A DNA stretch of 44,562 nt from Chloroflexota bacterium (GTDB taxonomy: Bacteria; Chloroflexota; Anaerolineae; Aggregatilineales; Phototrophicaceae). The notes below the pieces were generated by a model that ran no database searches, was not told the DNA's origin, and saw only the letters and a program-made list of their open reading frames with translations. How positions within the stretch are numbered: the stretch's first letter is position 1; every line of letters starts with the position of its first letter. This document shows positions 19,096 through 37,224 of the stretch, one piece after another. The stretch covers positions 1-44,562 of the forward strand of contig RFHA01000332.1 of assembly GCA_003696565.1 (NCBI GenBank), given 5' to 3'. Made by a program: the position numbers and the translations under genes.

Positions 19096-19412
19096 AAAAA
19101 ACCCCTCGCCTTAAGAATTTATCTCAAGGACGAGAGGGTCTTTCTCGCGGTACCACCTTGATTCGGTATGGTATATCACACATACCGCACTCATTTTCGC
19201 TATTACGGGCGTTCCCGTCTTGTGCTAATTAGTGAATAGTCTGTTGTTGGTATTTAAAGACGGCTAAAAGTTGATAACTGACAGCTACACTGTTCACACA
19301 AGCGACTCACGGGCGACCTTCCACCGACTGTTGTGTGCGGGTTTTCAGCCTATGACCTGCACTCTCTGATTAACAAGGGAGTTGGTGTACTCCTCCCGGT
19401 CAACGTCTTTCT
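19096..19412 (-). ncRNA. T-box riboswitch leader, valine specifier
   Basis: Read on the minus strand, the leader contains the T-box core GGTGGTACCGCG (19146-19157), followed by the terminator hairpin (19102-19139) and a T-run (19096-19101). In the Stem I part, the triplet GUC (19315-19317) is followed by a purine as expected for a specifier, and GUC is a valine codon. The TGGT in the T-box bulge matches a tRNA acceptor end with A at the discriminator, as in tRNA-Val. Uncharged tRNA-Val should stabilise the antiterminator and allow transcription of the methyltransferase and valS. The 5' end is set by the promoter below; Stem I boundaries are approximate. Confidence 0.93.
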
Positions 19413-20129: not shown

Positions 20130-20138
20130 TGATGATAA

Positions 20139-20209
20139 GCCACTGATGGGATTTGAACCCATAACCTCACGCTTACGAAGCGTATGCTCTGCCGTTGAGC
20201 TACAGTGGC
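20139..20209 (-). tRNA. tRNA-Thr, anticodon CGU
   Basis: A complete cloverleaf reads from 20209 down to 20139: 7-bp acceptor stem (GCCACTG / CAGTGGC), D-arm with GGCAG, a 5-bp anticodon stem around the loop TTCGTAA, and a T-arm ATGGG-TTCAAAT-CCCAT. The anticodon CGU reads the threonine codon ACG. No CCA is encoded; the RNA would need CCA addition. Confidence 0.95.
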
Positions 20210-25812: not shown

Positions 25813-27912
25813 TCAACGTCCAACCAGAACAACTACTGAACGGGCACCAATATTGATAAATTGCTGATTATCTAAAACAGGTTCTTGCCCTGGTGGGTGG
25901 ATATGCTGCCAGGCATTGGCACTTGTATTAACAAAAACATGCCAAAGCATCTCTGAAGGCAGGGCAGGAATCTCAAATATATGATCTTCCCAATGCATAT
26001 TCATAGCAAAGTAAATCATATCATCATCGACATGGCTGCCATCTAATAAAAATGCCAGGGTTAATACATAGTCTCCCCAATCAGCAAACCATGCACGAGT
26101 GCCATGCCAAGAAATATCTGGATAACCACTCTCCCCACGATCTTGATGATAAAAATGCTCATGGCTACGCAGAACTTTATGTTTATGACGGAAGTGGATA
26201 CATTGTTTAAAGAATTCAAAAATATCAGCGTTTTTATTGAGATTATTCCAATTTAACCAATTTAAGTCATTATCATGACAAAAGGTGTTGTTATTACCAT
26301 ATTTTGTGTGTCCCATCTCATCGCCCATTAAGATCATAGGGATACCTCGACTCATCATCAACGTCGTAATCGCATTTTTAATAAGTCGGCGGCGTAGCAT
26401 ATTGATATTTGGGTCTTTTGTTTCACCTTCGTAACCACAATTCCAGCTATAGTTGTCGTTTGCCCCATCACGATTGCCTTCACCATTAGCATAATTGTGT
26501 TTTTCATTGTAGGTGTATAGATCATATAAGGTAAACCCATCATGGCAGGTGATAAAATTAATAGATGCTGTTGCGCCACGATCTCCGTACAGGTCTGGTG
26601 AACCTTGTAGTCGTTCTGCCATTTCCCATACTAACCCAGTATCGCCTTTTAAGAAACGCCGTGTGACATCCCGATATTTCCCGTTCCATTCTGCCCAGCG
26701 TCCATAAGCGGGGAAACTACCTACTTGATATAATCCACCAGCATCCCAAGCTTCTGCAATCAGTTTACAATTTGCTAAGATTGGATCATGAGCTAATGCT
26801 TCTAATAACGGTGGATTAGAGAGCGGATAACCGTTTTGGTCACGCCCCAAAATCGATGCTAAATCGAAACGAAACCCATCAATGTGGTAGTCTGCTACCC
26901 AATAACGTAAGCAGTCAACTACCATGCTCCGCACCACTGGATTGTTACAGTTCATGGTGTTGCCTGTACCACTGAAGTTCAGATAACGTCCGTCTGGTGT
27001 GAGCATATAGTAGGTTTTGTTGTCGATACCGCGAAATGAGATCGTTGGTCCCATTTCGTTACCTTCACCAGTATGGTTAAAGACCACATCTAAGATGACT
27101 TCTATGCCATTACGATGAAGTTCTTTGATGAGGGTTTTTAGCTCATCCCCTTCCATACCTAATCCACCGGTGGCGGCGTATCCGGCTTTGGGGGCAAAAA
27201 AACCAATTGTGCTATATCCCCAATAGTTAAGTAAACGTTCGCCGGTAATGGGGTTGATACCACTATATTCAAACTCATCAAATTCAAAAATTGGCATCAA
27301 TTCAATGCAATTAACCCCTAACTCTTTGAGATAGGGGATTTTCTCGCGAATGGCGGCAAATGTCCCTGGATATTTTACGTTAGACGTATGATGCTTGGTA
27401 AAACCTCGAACATGCATTTCATAAATAACCAGGTCTTGCACCGGGATGTTAGGTGGCGTGTCACCTTCCCAGTCGTAGTCATCTGGGACAATTTGTGCAC
27501 GATGCTGATAAAGGTTATCTGGATCGGGTGCTTCTCCCCAGATTGCTCGTCCGCTAATTGAGCGTGCATAAGGGTCTAGTAAAATTTTGCTTGCATCAAA
27601 GCGATGCCCTGCATGCGGGATATATGGTCCATCAAGCCGAAACCCATATTCAATACGCTCAATATTTAAGCCGAACACCATCATTGTAAAAACATTCCCA
27701 ACCCGAAATTCTGGCGGAAAAGGGATTTCTTCAAAGGGATTTAGATGCCCTTTTTCGTATAAGACGAGTGTACAACTTGTTGCATGGCGAGAAAAAATTG
27801 AAAAATTCACACCATTACCCATCACAGTCGCGCCAAAAGGTAATGGGCGACCAACACGCATTTTAAGATTATTATGCTGATGGGTTGGTTGCGAATCAAT
27901 GCGAGTATGCAT
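25813..27912 (-). CDS. glgX: Glycogen debranching enzyme (GlgX/isoamylase type)
   Basis: Hydrolyses alpha-1,6 branches in glycogen or limit dextrins. An N-terminal CBM48-like domain (about 20-130) precedes a GH13 catalytic barrel. All four GH13 regions are visible: DVVFNHTGEG (275-284), GFRFD with nucleophile Asp350, AEAWD with acid/base Glu387, and CHDG with Asp458. The C-terminal beta domain ends near residue 699. Length is normal for GlgX. AAGGA precedes the ATG, which follows the STAS gene stop by nine bases, so the two form an operon. Confidence 0.95.
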   Translation of the reverse strand: MHTRIDSQPTHQHNNLKMRVGRPLPFGATVMGNGVNFSIFSRHATSCTLVLYEKGHLNPFEEIPFPPEFRVGNVFTMMVFGLNIERIEYGFRLDGPYIPHAGHRFDASKILLDPYARSISGRAIWGEAPDPDNLYQHRAQIVPDDYDWEGDTPPNIPVQDLVIYEMHVRGFTKHHTSNVKYPGTFAAIREKIPYLKELGVNCIELMPIFEFDEFEYSGINPITGERLLNYWGYSTIGFFAPKAGYAATGGLGMEGDELKTLIKELHRNGIEVILDVVFNHTGEGNEMGPTISFRGIDNKTYYMLTPDGRYLNFSGTGNTMNCNNPVVRSMVVDCLRYWVADYHIDGFRFDLASILGRDQNGYPLSNPPLLEALAHDPILANCKLIAEAWDAGGLYQVGSFPAYGRWAEWNGKYRDVTRRFLKGDTGLVWEMAERLQGSPDLYGDRGATASINFITCHDGFTLYDLYTYNEKHNYANGEGNRDGANDNYSWNCGYEGETKDPNINMLRRRLIKNAITTLMMSRGIPMILMGDEMGHTKYGNNNTFCHDNDLNWLNWNNLNKNADIFEFFKQCIHFRHKHKVLRSHEHFYHQDRGESGYPDISWHGTRAWFADWGDYVLTLAFLLDGSHVDDDMIYFAMNMHWEDHIFEIPALPSEMLWHVFVNTSANAWQHIHPPGQEPVLDNQQFINIGARSVVVLVGR

Positions 27913-27921
27913 TAGATGTCC

Positions 27922-28308
27922 TTAAGATGCCATAAGCTGTTTTAAGCCATCTTCACGATTATCTACTGTATGGAAAAAATCCAGAAAACCGGTGATAGCC
28001 ATGACATCACGGACTTCATCGTTTAATCCACAGACGACGATTTTGCCAACTTTATTTTGAATTTCTCGATACAGAACTAATAAAATACGCAACCCCGCAC
28101 TAGACATATATGATACCTGACTCATGTCTAGTAGAATGCGGCTATCCTGTTTAACTAAAGATAGGATATGGTCTTGTGCTTGTGGGGCAGTGATGGAGTC
28201 CAGTTCACCGAACAATTCAATAACAGTAACTTTTCCATTTTCTTCTGAATGAATATCCATAATATCAACAAATAACGTAGCTGATTTTAATAACTGATTG
28301 TATATCAT
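27922..28308 (-). CDS. STAS-domain protein, anti-sigma factor antagonist type
   Basis: 128 aa; resembles SpoIIAA/RsbV. The domain spans about residues 20-122, with the phosphorylatable serine in the loop SYMSSAGLRIL (Ser at about 69-70). In partner-switching systems the unphosphorylated form binds and removes an anti-sigma factor. The first ATG (28308) has GTGAG upstream and fits the promoter; an internal ATG 16 codons later (28260) has no ribosome site. No anti-sigma kinase is next to it. It heads an operon with glgX. Confidence 0.88.
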   Translation of the reverse strand: MIYNQLLKSATLFVDIMDIHSEENGKVTVIELFGELDSITAPQAQDHILSLVKQDSRILLDMSQVSYMSSAGLRILLVLYREIQNKVGKIVVCGLNDEVRDVMAITGFLDFFHTVDNREDGLKQLMAS

Positions 28309-28381: not shown

Positions 28382-29956
28382 TCATCGTGAAGTGTTTTTT
28401 TGAGTATTTTTCATAAATTTCAAACCAAATACTAATGGACTTACAATAACTCGGATGATTTTAATGATCCAACTCAGAAAAATGACGCTTTTTTCAGGAG
28501 GAGAGGGATGGTGAATTGTTATAGGTTGTTGATTGTTTTGTGCCAAAATAGCATTTGCTGCGCCAATCCCTGTAGTGGCAGCGCGCTCCATCCAAAATGT
28601 CGGCGTATCAAACCCAATCCAATCGCCACAAGCATATAAATTCTGCCAGGGAGTATGAACCCAGAGGCTACGGTGATCTGGTACACGAAACGCTGTTTGA
28701 GTTCGTAAGTTGCGCCGAACTGTCCCATACACAAAATGCCCACGAAGCTCAGGAAACGCAAGATAGACATCATTAGTTGCTAAAACCAGCAAGTGACTGT
28801 CTGGTTTAGACATTAGATCATGTGTGCCGTAAATATGTACTTCAATAACGCTACCACCCGTTTCTTGGTGCCAAACACGGTATTCATCATATAAGCGATG
28901 TAACCAGAAAAAATTATCTGCCACAAAATCTCCGGTAAACATCCCGCCTGGGGTACCAGCTCTTGGAGAGGTATCAAACCAGATTCGGACGACAGCATTA
29001 GAGAGCGCGTTAGGGAAAATTAAATTTTGGGCTTCTGGTGCGGTATCCGGGCTTGCTATGAGTAGTCGTTGAGCGGCAGGCGCATCAACTGCCAAAACGA
29101 TATATTTTGTGTTTAGGCTGCGCAGACCACCGCGTTTTGCATCTTCTACGATAATACGCCAGCCATCAGATTGTTGTTCTAATTTGATTGCGGTTGTGCC
29201 ATAAAAGATACCCCCCTGGCGCGATTCAATATAATCAAGTAATGGTTTAACAAAGCTTTTGGCGGGTGGGGCAGGGAAGTATTGCATATTCCAAGCATCT
29301 CGCCGGAGTACCGTATAAAAACGTAAGGCTGCGATCAAACTGCTTAATGAAATGGTCTCTTCTGGGGCGGCTAGTAAGTTAACACCAACGCCTACAAATG
29401 TCGCTTTGAGATTTGGAGTCCATAACCGGAAATAATCATGAAGCATTAAACCATCTAATGCACGTTGTTCTTTTATTGGATCAAATCCAACTGTCCAGCT
29501 AATGCTAAACAAAAACCCAGGTAAAGATAGAAAATCCCAGGGAGAAATTGTCCGCCAAAAACGTGGACTGAACAACAATTGCAAATAATGGAATGGGGCT
29601 GGGATAATACTGTTCCTAACGGCGTTTCCTGCTTCTACTGTGCGGACTTCGCGCCCCCAGCGATTGATCCATTCCTCACCTGGGGAGGTAATGAGTTGTG
29701 TATCAGTAAAGCGTTTAAGTGTAGCACGCAAGTTATGATACCCGCCCCAAAAGGCGTGCATACCTTGATCTGGGCTAAAAGACCATTCTTTTCCGTTGTA
29801 TACAAATGTTTCTGGATGCCCGCCACAAATGCGCCCACCTGCCCATTGACTATCTGCTTCTAGGATAACTGGCTCATATCCCTGCTCAGCAAGATAGGCG
29901 GCGGCGGTTAAACCTGCAATACCACCGCCAATAACAACGACTTTAAACTGATCCAT
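28382..29956 (-). CDS. FAD-dependent oxidoreductase, amine oxidase/phytoene desaturase-like
   Basis: 524 aa. The N-terminus holds the dinucleotide-binding GGGIAG loop (about 10-15) and the EADSQWAGGR segment expected in the amine oxidase/desaturase superfamily. The C-terminal flavin motif is LYACGDWIGFDTPTFWMERA, similar to carotene desaturase and hydroxysqualene dehydroxylase-like enzymes. A hydrophobic C-terminal tail could touch the membrane. No other carotenoid or hopanoid gene is nearby, so the substrate is open. The ATG lies inside the last codons of the kinase-STAND-WD40 gene (14-base overlap), which implies translational coupling. A GTG one codon earlier is an alternative. Confidence 0.85.
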   Translation of the reverse strand: MDQFKVVVIGGGIAGLTAAAYLAEQGYEPVILEADSQWAGGRICGGHPETFVYNGKEWSFSPDQGMHAFWGGYHNLRATLKRFTDTQLITSPGEEWINRWGREVRTVEAGNAVRNSIIPAPFHYLQLLFSPRFWRTISPWDFLSLPGFLFSISWTVGFDPIKEQRALDGLMLHDYFRLWTPNLKATFVGVGVNLLAAPEETISLSSLIAALRFYTVLRRDAWNMQYFPAPPAKSFVKPLLDYIESRQGGIFYGTTAIKLEQQSDGWRIIVEDAKRGGLRSLNTKYIVLAVDAPAAQRLLIASPDTAPEAQNLIFPNALSNAVVRIWFDTSPRAGTPGGMFTGDFVADNFFWLHRLYDEYRVWHQETGGSVIEVHIYGTHDLMSKPDSHLLVLATNDVYLAFPELRGHFVYGTVRRNLRTQTAFRVPDHRSLWVHTPWQNLYACGDWIGFDTPTFWMERAATTGIGAANAILAQNNQQPITIHHPSPPEKSVIFLSWIIKIIRVIVSPLVFGLKFMKNTQKNTSR

Positions 29957-32900
29957 CACACAACGGCTCTACACGATACTGCTCGCGTTCTGCACAAGTT
30001 AACTCTCTAATGTAACGGTTTTGTCTAGCCCATTCTAAAATTTCTGTGGGGGAAGATGGGACAAGCCAAAGTCGAATAGTACGGTCTTGTGCGCTGGAAA
30101 TAGCATAGCGTTCATCTGGCATGAAGCGTACTTGAGAAAGCCAATCAGTATGATCATCAAAGCGGAAAATCTCTTGCCCAGTGTTGACATCCCATAAACG
30201 CATCGTCGTATCTGCTGAGCCGGTTAAAATCAATGTCCCAGTTTGGTTGAAGGCAACAGTTTGGATGCGATCATTATGCCCAATAAATTGACGTATCTCT
30301 TGTCCAGATTCGATATCCCACAAGCGAGCTGTTGAATCCCACGCTCCTGTAAGGATATATTTTCCATCTGGGCTAAACGCAACATCGTTAACAAAGCGGG
30401 TGTGCCCTTCAAATGTTTGTAGGCGTTCACCAGATTCGATATCCCACAAAGCAGCTGTGTTATCCCAGGATGATGTCGCTAATTGTCTGCCATCTGGGCT
30501 GAACGCTAGCCCGGTTACTTGAGCATTATGATCACCGAATGTGATAATTTCTTCGCCAGTGACGACATCCCAAACGCGCACAGTCCCATCACCTAAGCCG
30601 GCAACAATCTTTGAGCCATCCGGGCTGAATATAACATTATAAACAGCCTCCCCACCATCAGCTAAGCGGTTGACTTCCTCAATTTCTAAGTTGCCTGGCT
30701 CAATTTCTGTTATGTGCCATAAAATAACACGCCCATCCCAAGACGCTGAAACAAGCATTGTGCCATCCGGGCTGAAATTCACGCCTTCAACTGTGGATTC
30801 GTGCCCTTCTAATACTGCTAATTCGGTATTAGTTTCTAAATCCCACAGGCGTACAGTTGTATCTACAGCTAGGCTTGGGTCTAACGGTCCTGAACCGGAT
30901 GCTGCATAACGCCCGTTAGGATGAACTGCCATACTCCAGACCCAATCTTGATGTCCTGTGAGGGTGGTTAATAACCCTCTACTACGGAGATCAATTAACC
31001 ATGCAGCGGGTGCGGTAGATTGCTCTGCTTCTAGCGTAATTTCATTACCTCCTAAATTGCCGGATGCCACAATAGCGTATTCTCCATCTGCACTGATTGC
31101 AACATCCAATAGTAGGTCATCAAAAACGTTAAAGCGTTGAACCTCAATACCTGTGTTAATTTCCCAGACACGTAAAGAACGATCCCAAGAAGCGGAGACA
31201 ATGTATTGGCTATCTGGTGTAAATGTGATGCCAGGAATCAGGTTGGAATGCCCGTAAAGTGTGCGGATTTCCTCACCAGATTGCCGATCCCAGATGCGGA
31301 TAAACCCGCCACGATTGCGATCCCATGATCCAGAGGCAACATAACGTCCATCAGGACTGATATCTACCGTACGTACCCACCCTGAATTGAGGTTCCATTG
31401 ATGGATCACTTCGCCAGTATCTAAATCCCACAAACGTACAGAACGATCCCGTGGGTTATTTGGAACATTGTTACCAATCAAGCCATCACCGTGTGCTGTT
31501 GCAGCGAACTGTCCGTCTGCAGAGATGGCTAAACGGAAGATGAACCCGGTAGTTTCTTCATAGGCTTGGATTTGCTCACCTGTTGCGACCCGCCAACGAC
31601 GCAAGGTGCGATCTAACCCACCAGAAAGTATCTCTTCCCCATTTGGTAGAAAAGCCACAGTTGTAACATCATCTGTATGCCCTACAAATGACCGAATCAA
31701 TTCCCCAGACTCGACATCATATAAGTGCAGCATGTTGTCTGTACCACTGACAACAACCTGTTTCCCATCCGGGCTGAAGGCAACATCTGTGAGCAATGAC
31801 CCTTCAACCATAACTGTCAGCCGATTTTCACCTGTTATATTATCCCACAAGCGTAAGGTGCCATCTGCCGAAACACTTGCGCTGATGTTTTCAGTAGGGC
31901 TGCTAGCTACAGCAAGAACAGTGGCAGTATGTGCGTCAAAACGATAACGCACACCTGGACTATAAACAGAATTCGCTAATATCCGGGTGACTTCAATAGG
32001 GGTAGGTGTATATACTTCTTGAGCAGCAACCGACAACGCAATCGCCAGGGTGGGGTCATGTTGGATTAAAGCATTCCGGGCGTTTGCGCCAAGTGCTAAC
32101 GCTTTTGCTTCTTGGCTAGCGTTCCGTGCCAGTTCGGCTTGATGTTCTGCCTCTTGGTTAGCTATTTTAAGCTGATTTGCATTGCGTTCAGCATCAGCCC
32201 GAGCATTGAGTGCGAAAACTGCCAACACAGCGGAAATTACTGCCGCAATGGTCATAACAGCAACAAGCATTCTAAGACGATTGCGAGAGCGTATTTCAAG
32301 TTCTTGCTCACGTTGTTGTCGTACTAGCTCCTCGGCTTCTCGTTTTTTACGCTCTTCAATACTTGCATTTAAATAGGCAAGTTCTCGTTCATTTAGTTCG
32401 AGATTGGTTGTCTCATACCAGTTTTCAAATTGTTGTAAACGTAGACCACGTGCAAGGTAACTGGGGTCTTTGCCCGCATTATGCCACTCTTCGGCAGCGG
32501 CTGTAATACGCCGTTGCATTCGTAAATCTTCACGGCTGCTGTCCAACCATTCACGAAGCTTTTTCCACTCTCGGATCAGTGCTTCATGCGCTACTTCAAC
32601 TGTTGCGGTACGTGTGACCGGATCATGGTCAAATGTCAATAAACGATACCGTCCGAAAGCGTCAATAATCATTGACATGGTATCGGGATCATTGCCGATA
32701 GATAAGAGTTCTGATTGCAAAACACGCCGACGAGTATCTTCTGCCCCTTCACCTAATGTCACCAGACGCACGAACATTTGCCTGGCAGCTTCTTGGGCAT
32801 CATCATCTAAACCAGCAAGCAATTCATCAGCACGGCGGGCTAATGCCCCCATTGTACCGCCAATTTGATTATATGTTTCGATGGAGATTGATAGACCATC

Positions 32901-34574
32901 CCGCCGCTCAAACAATTCGGTTAGTGCATACTGTAGGAGAGGCAACGCGCCGGGTTGTTCATTGACATCGGCAACGATTGCGGTGACTAAGCTCTCTTCT
33001 AGATGTAAACCAACGCGACGCGCAGGTCCTGTGATGGCGCGTTCTAACTCCTCTGCTGAAAGGGGTAAGACTACTTCTGTGCGCGCTTTCATCAACTGAC
33101 CAAAGCGGTTGTAATTCAATGGGCGATCATAAAAATCGGCTCGTAAGGTAATGATAACCCGAACACGGCTACGGGGATCCATGACAGCTTCAACTAAGCT
33201 ATCCATGAAATGTGTGCGGACTTCTTCTTCATCCACTAGGGTAAATAATTCTTCAAATTGATCAATTAGAATGAGTAACTCAGTCTCATCATCTGGCAGT
33301 ACACGCTTAATAGCACGGACTAATCCGCGCGAATCTTCTTTTAGTTGTGAGAGTAAACTCTCTGGTGGATTAACCGCAATACGCAGTAAGGCAGCCTCTA
33401 ATTCTTCCATTGGGTCAATGCCTGGTAGCATTTCAACGACAAACCAGTTTTCTGATCCTGGCATCATGCCGCTTCTGAGTTCAGGGATAACCCCTGCTTT
33501 AACCACGCTAGATTTCCCACTACCGCTTGGTCCGACAACTGCTAGAAAGCGATTATTATCTACAGGTTCTTGCATCCGCCGGATAATACTCATGACTAGC
33601 ACTTCGCGCCCAAAGAAATCTGCTGCATCGGCTTGCTGGAAGGCACGTAACCCTTTATAAGGATTTTCTGGGTCTGGAATAACAATACTGCCAGATGACC
33701 CAGTGAATACGGCTGTGCCGGCTGGTAGTTCATCATCAGATGATAACAGTGGTTTGATCGCACGACGAAAATCACGCGCTAATTCAATTGTGTTTTCGTA
33801 ACGAAATTCAGGGTCTTTGGCTGTTGCCCTTTGTAAAACGGCATTAATCGCATCTGGCAATTCTGGATTAACCAGCACAATATCTGGTAATGGTTCACTG
33901 AGGTGACGATACATAAGCGTGACAGGTGAATCAGCTTGATAGGGTTTTTCACCTGTTAACATCTCATAGATAACAATGCCAAGTGCATAAATATCACTTT
34001 TTGCAGTGACATTTTCCCCTTTGATTTGTTCTGGAGAAAGATATGCTGGTGAACCAATAACGGCATTTTTTTGCGTGATGTTCTGTTGACTGCCTAACTC
34101 TTTGGCAATGCCAAAATCCGATAGATAAGCGTTGTTGTTCTCATCTAGTAGAATATTTTCCGGCTTTATATCACGATGAATAATTCCCTGGCGATGTGCA
34201 ACATGTAAAGCCTCGGCAATCTGATTAAGCACATGACTCACGGATTGAGGTGACCAAACCCCATCTTTTTCTAATGAATCTTGTACACTACCCCCCCGTA
34301 GCCAACGCATGACTAGATAAGCACCAGATGGCTCTCGCCAATAATCGTAGAGTGGTACAATATGAGGATGTTCTAAACGAGCAACAAGCTGTGCTTCTGT
34401 TTCAAAACGACGAATAAATTCCGGGCGGTTAGCATGTTCCGGTAGAATGATTTTAATGGCAACTTCCCGTCCAATAAATTGTTGATATGCACGGTAAACT
34501 GCCCCAAACCCGCCTTTACCAATTAACTCTTTCAACTCGTAAGTTTTTATAACCTGTCCGGTCAGATTGTCCAT
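29943..34574 (-). CDS. Ser/Thr protein kinase fused to STAND NTPase and 14 WD40 repeats
   Basis: 1543 aa. Residues 10-275 are a complete Hanks-type kinase: IGKGGFGAVY, ATP Lys41, catalytic HRDIKPEN (133-140), DFG (153-155) and SPE (180-182). A linker leads to a novel-STAND NTPase (about 302-690): NPYKGLRAF, Walker A GPSGSGKSS (348-356) and Walker B LILIDQFEE with Asp438. A charged helical region and one membrane helix (about 768-788) follow, then a coiled-coil-like stretch. Residues 875-1520 contain 14 WD40 repeats by my count, enough for two seven-bladed propellers. The kinase and NTPase would be cytosolic and the propellers outside. STAND proteins act as signal-triggered switches. ATG with AAGGAT upstream. 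Confidence 0.95.
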   Translation of the reverse strand: MDNLTGQVIKTYELKELIGKGGFGAVYRAYQQFIGREVAIKIILPEHANRPEFIRRFETEAQLVARLEHPHIVPLYDYWREPSGAYLVMRWLRGGSVQDSLEKDGVWSPQSVSHVLNQIAEALHVAHRQGIIHRDIKPENILLDENNNAYLSDFGIAKELGSQQNITQKNAVIGSPAYLSPEQIKGENVTAKSDIYALGIVIYEMLTGEKPYQADSPVTLMYRHLSEPLPDIVLVNPELPDAINAVLQRATAKDPEFRYENTIELARDFRRAIKPLLSSDDELPAGTAVFTGSSGSIVIPDPENPYKGLRAFQQADAADFFGREVLVMSIIRRMQEPVDNNRFLAVVGPSGSGKSSVVKAGVIPELRSGMMPGSENWFVVEMLPGIDPMEELEAALLRIAVNPPESLLSQLKEDSRGLVRAIKRVLPDDETELLILIDQFEELFTLVDEEEVRTHFMDSLVEAVMDPRSRVRVIITLRADFYDRPLNYNRFGQLMKARTEVVLPLSAEELERAITGPARRVGLHLEESLVTAIVADVNEQPGALPLLQYALTELFERRDGLSISIETYNQIGGTMGALARRADELLAGLDDDAQEAARQMFVRLVTLGEGAEDTRRRVLQSELLSIGNDPDTMSMIIDAFGRYRLLTFDHDPVTRTATVEVAHEALIREWKKLREWLDSSREDLRMQRRITAAAEEWHNAGKDPSYLARGLRLQQFENWYETTNLELNERELAYLNASIEERKKREAEELVRQQREQELEIRSRNRLRMLVAVMTIAAVISAVLAVFALNARADAERNANQLKIANQEAEHQAELARNASQEAKALALGANARNALIQHDPTLAIALSVAAQEVYTPTPIEVTRILANSVYSPGVRYRFDAHTATVLAVASSPTENISASVSADGTLRLWDNITGENRLTVMVEGSLLTDVAFSPDGKQVVVSGTDNMLHLYDVESGELIRSFVGHTDDVTTVAFLPNGEEILSGGLDRTLRRWRVATGEQIQAYEETTGFIFRLAISADGQFAATAHGDGLIGNNVPNNPRDRSVRLWDLDTGEVIHQWNLNSGWVRTVDISPDGRYVASGSWDRNRGGFIRIWDRQSGEEIRTLYGHSNLIPGITFTPDSQYIVSASWDRSLRVWEINTGIEVQRFNVFDDLLLDVAISADGEYAIVASGNLGGNEITLEAEQSTAPAAWLIDLRSRGLLTTLTGHQDWVWSMAVHPNGRYAASGSGPLDPSLAVDTTVRLWDLETNTELAVLEGHESTVEGVNFSPDGTMLVSASWDGRVILWHITEIEPGNLEIEEVNRLADGGEAVYNVIFSPDGSKIVAGLGDGTVRVWDVVTGEEIITFGDHNAQVTGLAFSPDGRQLATSSWDNTAALWDIESGERLQTFEGHTRFVNDVAFSPDGKYILTGAWDSTARLWDIESGQEIRQFIGHNDRIQTVAFNQTGTLILTGSADTTMRLWDVNTGQEIFRFDDHTDWLSQVRFMPDERYAISSAQDRTIRLWLVPSSPTEILEWARQNRYIRELTCAEREQYRVEPLCDGSV

Positions 34575-34660
34575 AGTAATCCTTATAGAAGAGGCATTTT
34601 CTTAAGAGATGCTGATTATAACACTAATAAGTCATGCGAACTTAAAAATTCGTAAAATTT

Positions 34661-36589
34661 TTAGAGTGATAATGACATGTCTGTATCATCAGGCGAAGGA
34701 GTTTCGCTAGAACTACTGGGGCGGAAGCGAGTTCGTAATTCTCGAATGGCTAATCCTGCTACTAGATACATCAATCGCCGTCCGCCGATTGATGCGGTTT
34801 CCCATGTCAGCGTTCGTAACCCACAAAAGACCAAAGCTGTGTAATACTCTGACCATTTATCATCTTCTGCAAGGCATTGTCTAGCAATCTCACGGATGTA
34901 ACGCACGGTTTCTAATCGTGCAATAGCTGGTGAGAGGGTAGTATCAATAAACTCCCCCCCATTCAGTTTTATAATGTGATTTACAACCATACGAGCAGCA
35001 TCCCAAGACCCATCTGTCGCGCTCATCACGTAGTCATTTAAGATGCTATTTTCTAATGTTACCCAATCAAAAATCGTGTGACCATCACGTGTATGAGCAA
35101 AATCAATCAGAAACGCGCTTTGGTTAGGACCAATCATGATATTGCCTGGATGTAAATCCCCATGAATTGTACACAGGGTACCGTTGACATAACTATCAAG
35201 TAAGCCTTCATAGGCTAAAATAGGGTTAGGGATTTTTTCTTTGTTATTGATGGGAATTTTTTCTGCTTGAGCGTCAAAATCTGGCTCTAACGCCCGTAAT
35301 GCAAGCAAGAGCTGCTGAGCGCGTGTTTGCCATACCGTGCCGACTAAGTTTTCAACCACTTCGCCACGATAATAAGTGTTTTCCTCTAAGTTGACCCCGC
35401 GAACCTCTATTTTGTAGGCATTAGTGGAATCTGTATTATTGCCAACAGCGAGTTGAATTGTGTTGCGATCCGGGTATACACGTTGTACGATGAAATTTTC
35501 AACTGCGACAACATCACCATAATCGAGTCTGCGGAGCTTAGCACGTTTAATTGGCATACGTATGACATGCCCATTTGAAGGAAATTCCTTTTGACTGAAT
35601 TCTAAAGTAAGTACAGGTGGGAGAAGCCAGTCATATTCACGCCAAACTTGGAAACGAAACGGACGATTTTGCTTCCACCAGCTATGACTGAAAGGCGGAA
35701 ATAGTTCATTCTTAAGCCATTCGCCAATGTCTTTTGGTGTCCAAGTAGCCATAATTGCCCGCAAATCTTTCGGTACACGGTCATAACCAGCGATCAAGGT
35801 ATATTTAATACCTGCTAGGTCGGATTGTTCTGGGGCGATTGGTTTATCTTCGATACGTGCTGTCATGGGCGGAAGTTTAGTTTTAACATGGGCTTCATAT
35901 CGTTGTGCTTCATCTAAAATGCTATCCACTTGGTTGATTTTAACAATAACAGCCGCGTCTTCACGTTTATCAACATGAATTGGCGTGACAACTAAAAGCG
36001 TTGCACTACTATATCCACTAGTCAGGCGACGTTCTACTCGAATTTGAGAATAGCCATAAAACATTCGCCTTAAAATAAAGGCTTCATCTCTAGAGAGTTT
36101 ATCAGTTGGCTCAAAATGTTGCCCAAAATCAATACGAATATATGGTTGTTGTGAGCTTGAATGTGTCGCTGTGTTTTGTGCTAACTCAATTAATTCGCGA
36201 GGGTTATTTAATCCAAGTGCAATTAATACACGCATCGGAATATTTTCATATTCTTCAAATAATGCGATTAAGATATCACGCTCATTGATTTGCTCACGCC
36301 CATTATCAAGTGCTAAGTCATTTGCAATACTGAGGATAACCTCTGCTCTTGGGGTTTTAGGAACATCTGCCCATAAGCGGTGCTTACCACCTTTTCCAAG
36401 TTTTCGGCGGATTGCGTTAATGACATATTCAGGGGTTAAGCCATAATGTTGAACAATGTGGCTTGCTAAGCTACCGCGAATTTGAAGCAATGCAATAAAC
36501 AGGTGTTCTGCGCCAATGTAAAAGTGCCTCATTCGGTAAGCTTCTTGTCTGGCGGCAATTAAAATGTCTTTAAGTTCGATATTGGGCAT
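34661..36589 (-). CDS. Clp-N domain fused to an aminoglycoside-phosphotransferase-like kinase
   Basis: 642 aa. Residues 1-140 are a double Clp N-terminal domain (AYRMRHFYIGAEHLFIALL and RAEVILSIANDLAL), normally the substrate/adaptor-binding part of ClpA/ClpC, here without any AAA+ module. Residues about 180-620 are a phosphotransferase of the APH/choline-kinase type: a beta-rich N-lobe with probable ATP Lys217 (AAVIVK), the catalytic loop HGDLHPGN (476-483) and the metal-binding Asp496 in IDFAH. A separate domain of about 90 residues (about 325-415, beta-rich) is inserted between the lobes. Both catalytic acids are present, so activity is plausible, but the substrate is unknown. Seven bases after the FHA gene and 86 before the kinase-STAND gene; same strand. 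Confidence 0.85.
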   Translation of the reverse strand: MPNIELKDILIAARQEAYRMRHFYIGAEHLFIALLQIRGSLASHIVQHYGLTPEYVINAIRRKLGKGGKHRLWADVPKTPRAEVILSIANDLALDNGREQINERDILIALFEEYENIPMRVLIALGLNNPRELIELAQNTATHSSSQQPYIRIDFGQHFEPTDKLSRDEAFILRRMFYGYSQIRVERRLTSGYSSATLLVVTPIHVDKREDAAVIVKINQVDSILDEAQRYEAHVKTKLPPMTARIEDKPIAPEQSDLAGIKYTLIAGYDRVPKDLRAIMATWTPKDIGEWLKNELFPPFSHSWWKQNRPFRFQVWREYDWLLPPVLTLEFSQKEFPSNGHVIRMPIKRAKLRRLDYGDVVAVENFIVQRVYPDRNTIQLAVGNNTDSTNAYKIEVRGVNLEENTYYRGEVVENLVGTVWQTRAQQLLLALRALEPDFDAQAEKIPINNKEKIPNPILAYEGLLDSYVNGTLCTIHGDLHPGNIMIGPNQSAFLIDFAHTRDGHTIFDWVTLENSILNDYVMSATDGSWDAARMVVNHIIKLNGGEFIDTTLSPAIARLETVRYIREIARQCLAEDDKWSEYYTALVFCGLRTLTWETASIGGRRLMYLVAGLAIRELRTRFRPSSSSETPSPDDTDMSLSL

Positions 36590-36596
36590 AAGCTAA

Positions 36597-36950
36597 TTAC
36601 TCTATCGTTTCGATCCGCAACCAGGTTTTTCCTATACGGAATAGTTGATGTGTATTGAGGATAACAGTGTCTTGTATAGGGATGTCATTAAAAAAATCGT
36701 CGGGGTTTTCTAAAAAGGAGCCATTTGTACTTTTACAATCTTCCAGTAACCAATGACCTGCCTCATAAATAATATTAGCATGCCAGCGGGAGATGTAAGT
36801 ATCACTCTTTAAGCAGATGTCATTTTCATCTTTGCGTCCAATGCTAAGTCGCCATTTGCCTTGATCTTGTTGACCATCCCCCCTGGAGGAGTCGTATTCC
36901 AAGGTGTTGCCATCTTCTACACCGCTCATGATGGTAATTGTGATTTTCAA
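36597..36950 (-). CDS. FHA-domain protein
   Basis: A single forkhead-associated domain of about 117 aa, which binds phosphothreonine peptides. The conserved phosphopeptide-binding residues are visible: SIGRKDEN, the SRWHA motif and the CKSTNGSFL motif. I place the start at the TTG at 36950 because GGAGG lies exactly six bases upstream and the product then begins with the first FHA strand; upstream ATGs (37004, 36974) lack ribosome sites. It heads the block containing the Clp-N kinase and the Ser/Thr kinase, and could read phosphothreonines made by the latter. Confidence 0.88.
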   Translation of the reverse strand: MKITITIMSGVEDGNTLEYDSSRGDGQQDQGKWRLSIGRKDENDICLKSDTYISRWHANIIYEAGHWLLEDCKSTNGSFLENPDDFFNDIPIQDTVILNTHQLFRIGKTWLRIETIE

Positions 36951-37110: not shown

Positions 37111-37224
37111 ACTCTTATCCAGAGCAGTGGAGGGACCGGCCCTTTGAAGCTGCGGCAACCGTCACTTACATGAGGTGAAATGGTGCCAACTCCGACAGGT
37201 GGAATACCTGACAGATGAGAGGAA
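37111..37224 (+). ncRNA. SAM-I (S-box) riboswitch
   Basis: The S-box core is unmistakable: CTTATCCAGAGCAGTGGAGG, GGACCGGCCC, GCGGCAACC, GGTGCCAACTCC and CAGATGAGAG. P1 forms between TCTTATC (37113-37119) and GATGAGA (37214-37220). No T-tract terminator follows. Instead CTCTCCT (37236-37242) can pair either with GAGAG at the end of P1 or with the Shine-Dalgarno GGGAGAG (37298-37304), which suggests translational control of the next gene. Confidence 0.95.

Follow-up and report, generated by a model that had tools for sequence, protein, structure and literature searches.

What do the four minus-strand genes between positions 28,382 and 36,950 of an Anaerolineae contig do, and are they one system at all? 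The contig (RFHA01000332.1 of assembly GCA_003696565.1, Chloroflexota bacterium, order Aggregatilineales, family Phototrophicaceae) was analyzed as a single stretch of 44,562 nucleotides, called the window here. An initial annotation had described the four genes as one signalling block, with gaps of 7 and 86 bases and a 14-base overlap. The open reading frames (ORFs) bear out that layout: 7 bp separate the FHA and ClpN-TCAD9 genes, 86 bp separate ClpN-TCAD9 from the kinase-STAND gene, and the latter overlaps the FAD gene by 14 bp when counted from the FAD gene's ATG and by 17 bp from its GTG. Pfam likewise agrees with the domain content then given (FHA; Clp-N/APH; kinase-STAND-helix-WD40; flavoenzyme). 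With domains called from Pfam and NCBIfam profiles, the genes are as follows.

36597..36950 (-): stand-alone FHA-domain protein of about 117 amino acids, core gene 1 of the pair (Pfam FHA, 1.4e-12)
34661..36589 (-): ClpN-TCAD9 (APH-type) kinase, 642 amino acids, core gene 2 of the pair (Pfam Clp_N 4.8e-9, TCAD9 2.3e-32 and APH 9.5e-8, all on one protein)
29943..34574 (-): Ser/Thr kinase-nSTAND1-transmembrane helix-WD40 protein, outside the conserved unit (Pfam Pkinase 2.4e-58, nSTAND1 1.2e-121 and WD40, all on one protein)
28382..29959 (-): FAD enzyme of the amine-oxidase/HpnE-like type, a local neighbour only (Pfam and NCBIfam)

The first two form the actual unit, and the reading preferred here, at a probability of roughly 45%, is that they encode a phosphothreonine-switched kinase/adaptor which uses a Clp substrate-receptor domain standing free of the Clp system. 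The ClpN-TCAD9 gene is not a chance ORF, because most genomes of the window's family, and many of its order, carry full-length orthologues with an open frame. Across 84,980 scanned species genomes it turned up at 76 loci, nearly all labelled Anaerolineae or Chloroflexi; the two labelled otherwise, as Bacteroidetes and Pleurocapsa, are probably mis-assigned metagenome-assembled genomes (MAGs). In 60 of the 74 loci that have at least 300 bp of upstream sequence, the gene directly 5' of ClpN-TCAD9, in the same orientation and mostly across a gap of 3-9 bp, encodes an FHA protein, and this adjacency spans several families and two flanking contexts. Convergent leuB-cimA-leuD-leuC genes usually lie 3' of the pair; on its 5' side there is often murA, a metC-like gene or arg genes. 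Twelve genomes tested have ClpN-TCAD9 but no adjoining FHA gene, and each of them carries a member of this FHA family elsewhere (88-162 bits, where generic FHAs stay under 60), about 20 kb away on the same contig in two cases. Among 199 genomes of the class, this FHA family scores above 80 bits in eight, none of them from outside the window's family or order, with three weaker matches at 70-77 bits; genomes without ClpN-TCAD9 either lack it or have it just as the type found in the Clp2 operon described below. A conserved unit of two genes, FHA and ClpN-TCAD9, kept as stable neighbours, is thus well supported by gene order.

At one locus (L103, a 989-amino acid frame) ClpN-TCAD9 is fused behind an N-terminal ParA/MinD-like 'KGGVGRSMALAN' ATPase; the MAG concerned (JAIOHM, MAG_04) carries an ordinary pair too, at L085.

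Judged from its flanks, the position of the pair is fixed and vertically inherited, in contrast to that of a mobile defence island. This bears on the suggestion, which the Pfam name TCAD9 (ternary complex associated domain) and the STAND neighbour invite, that the genes belong to a phage-defence or biological-conflict system; ClpN, in repeats, and APH and FHA domains have been reported as rare components of vWA-MoxR ternary conflict systems (PMC7159879). The pair is, however, single-copy and without effector variation, PADLOC matches neither of its proteins and matches the kinases by their kinase domain only, and MoxR, vWA and VMAP were not among the genes identified in 38 pair neighbourhoods (not every neighbour was scanned), where leu, met, murA and arg genes recur. 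A role in conflict is accordingly given little credence.

Of 71 loci with a kilobase or more of downstream sequence, just 4 have the kinase-STAND-WD40 gene next to the pair, namely those of the window's genome and of its close relatives G017, G006 and G034. The gene belongs to a large multi-copy family; its nearest relatives elsewhere are remote from the pair, and copies there have no FHA, ClpN, STAS, GlgX or FAD neighbours. The FAD gene is missing from the close relative at locus L040 and from the remaining kinase-STAND loci. On synteny the four-gene block is rejected as a unit: of what had been proposed, the association of FHA with ClpN-TCAD9 stands, and the kinase-STAND and FAD genes drop out. 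The same division answers the initial annotation's own test, whether homologues of the Clp-N fusion keep conserved neighbours; the FHA gene is one, the other two are not. Nor is the part of sensor that had been assigned to the propeller kinase supported, given that it stands beside the pair only in these few close relatives. A pathway in which the STAND-WD40 kinase senses, the FHA protein relays, the ClpN kinase acts and the FAD enzyme takes part in the output could still draw on the short gaps, the common strand and the shared arrangement in the three relatives, but with the multi-copy family living apart from such genes and a TATAAT-like element inside the 86-bp gap 5' of the kinase-STAND gene, it is very improbable.

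The start of the FHA gene is most likely the TTG at 36950, which is preceded by GGAGG, though the longest ORF extends to 37004 (135 amino acids). In the numbering of that ORF, G56, R57, S72, R73, H75 and N94 are invariant in 60 of 60 partner FHAs. These include the Gly-Arg, Ser, His and Asn that form the binding pocket of phosphothreonine-reading FHA domains (G56, R57, S72, H75, N94), so that on its residues the protein has a complete phosphothreonine pocket. Its match to the NCBIfam FhaB model is weak (48 bits, with the cut-off at 125).

The ClpN-TCAD9 protein was modelled with AlphaFold2 (mean pLDDT 89.6), and three regions of its folded part are central here.

36170..36589 (-): Clp_N domain, ClpC-type, residues 1-140 (Foldseek, phmmer)
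35141..35164 (-): APH catalytic motif HGDLHPGN, residues 476-483; K217, E227 and D496 lie elsewhere
35270..35626 (-): OB-like beta-barrel of about 115 residues, inserted into the kinase at about 322-440 (AlphaFold2 pLDDT 91.1)

The modelled Clp_N domain matches ClpC N-domains by Foldseek (E 1.4e-7, TMt 0.70-0.83), as does its sequence by phmmer (1e-13), and a ClpC-like, uneroded Clp_N is present in every full-length orthologue. In the Hsp100 unfoldases ClpC, ClpB and ClpV this domain is followed by two AAA+ domains; the window protein has none and carries TCAD9/APH instead. TCAD9 (PF19974) covers residues 182-594 with 113 bits, well past the gathering cut-off of 40, and its model matches APH enzymes by Foldseek (1nd4 APH(3')-IIa, amicoumacin kinase), more weakly than Clp_N matches its own relatives. 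K217, E227, H476, D478, N483 and D496 are invariant across 61 ClpN-TCAD9 sequences, and among them are the N-lobe lysine (K217), the HxDxxxxN loop (H476-D478-N483) and the metal-binding aspartate (D496) of APH-type kinases; by these residues the active site is complete. For the insert, the top Foldseek matches are mostly OB-folds but none is significant (E 0.14 or worse), and the modelled OB-fold identity is suggestive only.

TCAD9 also occurs in other Chloroflexota: a receiver-TCAD9 protein was found by Pfam at L154:5321-6937(+), a receiver-like N-terminus was judged by eye at L155:6599-8242(-), L157, L158 and L161, and at L153, L157, L158 and L161 the TCAD9 gene lies next to one for a P-loop ATPase of 455-477 amino acids. 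Since it is fused to a receiver in these relatives, TCAD9 looks like an output kinase attached to differing inputs.

The closest relatives of the pair's Clp_N and FHA domains are themselves linked again, at a second kind of locus and in fusion proteins.

L162:5811-12585 (G000:C190): operon of Clp2 (788 amino acids), a Ser/Thr kinase with 17 TPRs, and FHA, conserved across the order
L173:8215-9897 (+), genome G040: single Pkinase-Clp_N-FHA protein, 560 amino acids
L166:6429-7910 (-), genome G041: single Pkinase-Clp_N protein, 493 amino acids, with an adjoining FHA gene
L163:7962-8745 (+), genome G001: FHA followed by a stand-alone Clp_N (142 amino acids), the kinase domain lost

The order Clp2 - kinase-TPR - FHA is seen at L162, L165, L168, L170, L176 and L177, away from the pair in the same genomes, and a hand tally puts Clp2 and FHA within 10 kb of each other in 15 of 23 genomes. 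Clp2 has Clp_N, two AAA+ modules and both Walker A motifs; it lacks the M-domain and in some cases has an [LI]GF-type loop. It is not the canonical ClpC, which is encoded elsewhere in the same genome (G000:C83) and to which it is 41-42% identical, but a second, ClpC-like protein; it stays below the cut-off of every NCBIfam Clp model (for ClpV, 682 bits where 885 are required). In trees, the Clp_N domains of Clp2, the pair and the fusions group together, separate from ClpC/ClpB (93/90), and the corresponding FHAs separate from generic ones (92/93), many forks being weak. Because the trees agree with the recurrent operon and fusion linkage, Clp_N and FHA are read as having travelled and duplicated jointly, with a Ser/Thr kinase as the usual third party. 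Both the operon and the fusion proteins, in which a Ser/Thr kinase meets Clp_N and FHA again, further strengthen the FHA/ClpN part of the earlier proposal.

These loci also bear on an alternative in which ClpN-TCAD9 is a small-molecule (sugar, nucleoside or antibiotic-like) kinase, its Clp_N governing just its own turnover or oligomerization and the FHA protein regulating the enzyme in the manner of OdhI or GarA. Membership of TCAD9 in the APH superfamily, with the Foldseek matches given above, speaks for this, as do the amino-acid biosynthesis genes flanking the pair and the existence of FHA proteins, OdhI and GarA, that regulate metabolic enzymes. But Clp_N is kept ClpC-like in all full-length orthologues, FHA and Clp_N recur alongside a protein kinase, and G001 retains Clp_N and FHA without the kinase, which suggests that the ClpN-FHA link, rather than the kinase chemistry, is the core. 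This explanation is considered unlikely, though it is the strongest of the rivals.

How might a phosphothreonine-switched kinase/adaptor work? The last part of ClpN-TCAD9 offers one lead:

34679..34705 (-): C-terminal tail motif ETPSPDDTD, residues 629-637 (T630/T636), candidate phosphothreonine site

The final dozen residues are disordered (pLDDT < 50) and bear TPSPDxTD/E-like motifs. A Hanks-type Ser/Thr kinase would phosphorylate the acidic Thr motif in this tail, and the FHA protein would then dock on it, holding or recruiting partners, so that assembly would become phosphothreonine-dependent, as with Fha and phospho-TssL in the type VI secretion system (T6SS; PMC3953482). The ClpC N-domain is the binding place of adaptors and marked substrates, and such binding activates ClpC (PMC12583610). 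With a ClpC-like N-domain detached onto it, the TCAD9 kinase could see ClpC-type clients; its Clp_N would bind the same sort of substrate or adaptor as Clp2's own N-domain, and the APH-type kinase might phosphorylate the bound client, marking it for Clp degradation or shielding it.

Of 62 non-redundant tails, 38 carry the motif [DE].T[DEN] within disordered and otherwise unconserved surroundings; shuffling every tail, a comparison that ignores shared ancestry, gives 7.9 +/- 2.6. Several points weigh against the kinase/adaptor reading. The motif is missing from 24 of the 62 tails and is uncorrelated with FHA adjacency (29/50 with an adjacent FHA gene, 9/12 without); the pair itself has neither a clp nor a clpP gene next to it; and APH-type kinases frequently act on small molecules. 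In addition, the two phosphoarginine anchors of Bacillus subtilis ClpC are E32 and E106; the invariant E28 of ClpN-TCAD9 aligns with E32, while the second Glu position aligns with R104 and the N-terminal contacts are not conserved. With one of two Glu anchors lining up and the N-terminal residues absent, a phosphoarginine-reader role for this Clp_N is doubtful. Given the shared ancestry, the tails without the motif and its independence of FHA adjacency, the acidic Thr motif is regarded as a candidate FHA docking site, a lead rather than a proof. One possibility is that FHA and ClpN cooperate but that the FHA protein finds its phosphothreonine elsewhere, on a Hanks kinase or a client, the tail holding an unrelated acidic linear motif; the gaps in the motif's distribution favour this, as does the Clp2 operon FHA, which has no acidic-Thr tail of the ClpN-TCAD9 kind next to it, whereas the excess over shuffled tails does not. 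It is rated as rather unlikely, slightly below the small-molecule alternative.

If the kinase/adaptor reading holds, the pair points to a connection, so far undescribed, of phosphorylation signalling with protein degradation by the Clp machinery. Kinase-driven regulated proteolysis in bacteria is known mainly via arginine phosphorylation (McsB-ClpC); this would be a second, independent kinase-to-Clp route with a testable use of a phosphothreonine code, and the uncharacterized TCAD9 kinase family gains a concrete partner, FHA. More tentatively, Clp2, the kinase-TPR protein, the FHA readers and the ClpN-bearing APH kinase may be parts of one Anaerolineae phosphothreonine network controlling Clp proteolysis, in which a kinase bearing a detached Clp substrate-receptor domain would phosphorylate Clp clients.

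The remaining features of the window lie around the pair and its downstream genes. In the kinase-STAND-WD40 protein a hydrophobic helix separates STAND from 12 WD40 stretches by Pfam, where the initial annotation had counted 14 blades, and the nearest NCBIfam family of the FAD enzyme is HpnE, at 90 bits far under the 283-bit cut-off. The same minus-strand run continues past the FAD gene:

27922-28308 (-): STAS anti-anti-sigma-type gene
25813-27912 (-): glgX

These two (25813-28308) also follow the kinase-STAND gene in L040, not its kin elsewhere. A SAM-I riboswitch (37112-37221(+), 92 bits) lies 5' of the metC-like gene and shares one intergenic region with the FHA gene, the two being read in opposite directions; a T-box leader lies at 19123-19412(-) and a tRNA gene at 20138-20209(-).

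The component families are all known; for their combination in FHA/ClpN-TCAD9, the literature searched on TCAD9 and on ClpC, FHA and kinases in Chloroflexi yielded no description. In the T6SS, Fha binds a partner's phosphothreonine (PMC3953482), and PpkA/Fha/ClpV similarly combine a Ser/Thr kinase, an FHA protein and an AAA+ Clp with an N-domain, though the Chloroflexota pair has its kinase fused to Clp_N. A link to the T6SS itself was rejected, as the sheath gene VipB is absent from all 31 genomes searched (the E. coli control was positive) and Clp2 falls under the ClpV cut-off; a phage/eCIS-type sheath (eCIS, extracellular contractile injection system) is found in 11 of 31 relatives and not in the window's genome. 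With the vWA-MoxR ternary systems the pair shares the TCAD9 domain family, but it is vertically inherited, and the TCAD9 of other Chloroflexota is receiver-fused. Like FhaB, OdhI and GarA, the FHA protein is a small stand-alone protein of the switch type; it differs in showing no visible N-terminal phosphothreonine motif, in being gene-linked to Clp_N proteins and in forming its own family. The closest parallel in proposed action is the arginine kinase McsA/McsB of Bacillus, which acts through the ClpC N-terminal domain and marks clients for ClpCP (PMC12583610), much as ClpN-TCAD9 is proposed to act via a ClpC-type N-terminal domain. McsB, however, is a phosphagen-kinase relative that binds this domain, and the phosphoarginine anchors are just partly conserved in ClpN-TCAD9, an APH/TCAD9 kinase that itself carries the ClpC-like N-domain and has an FHA partner besides.

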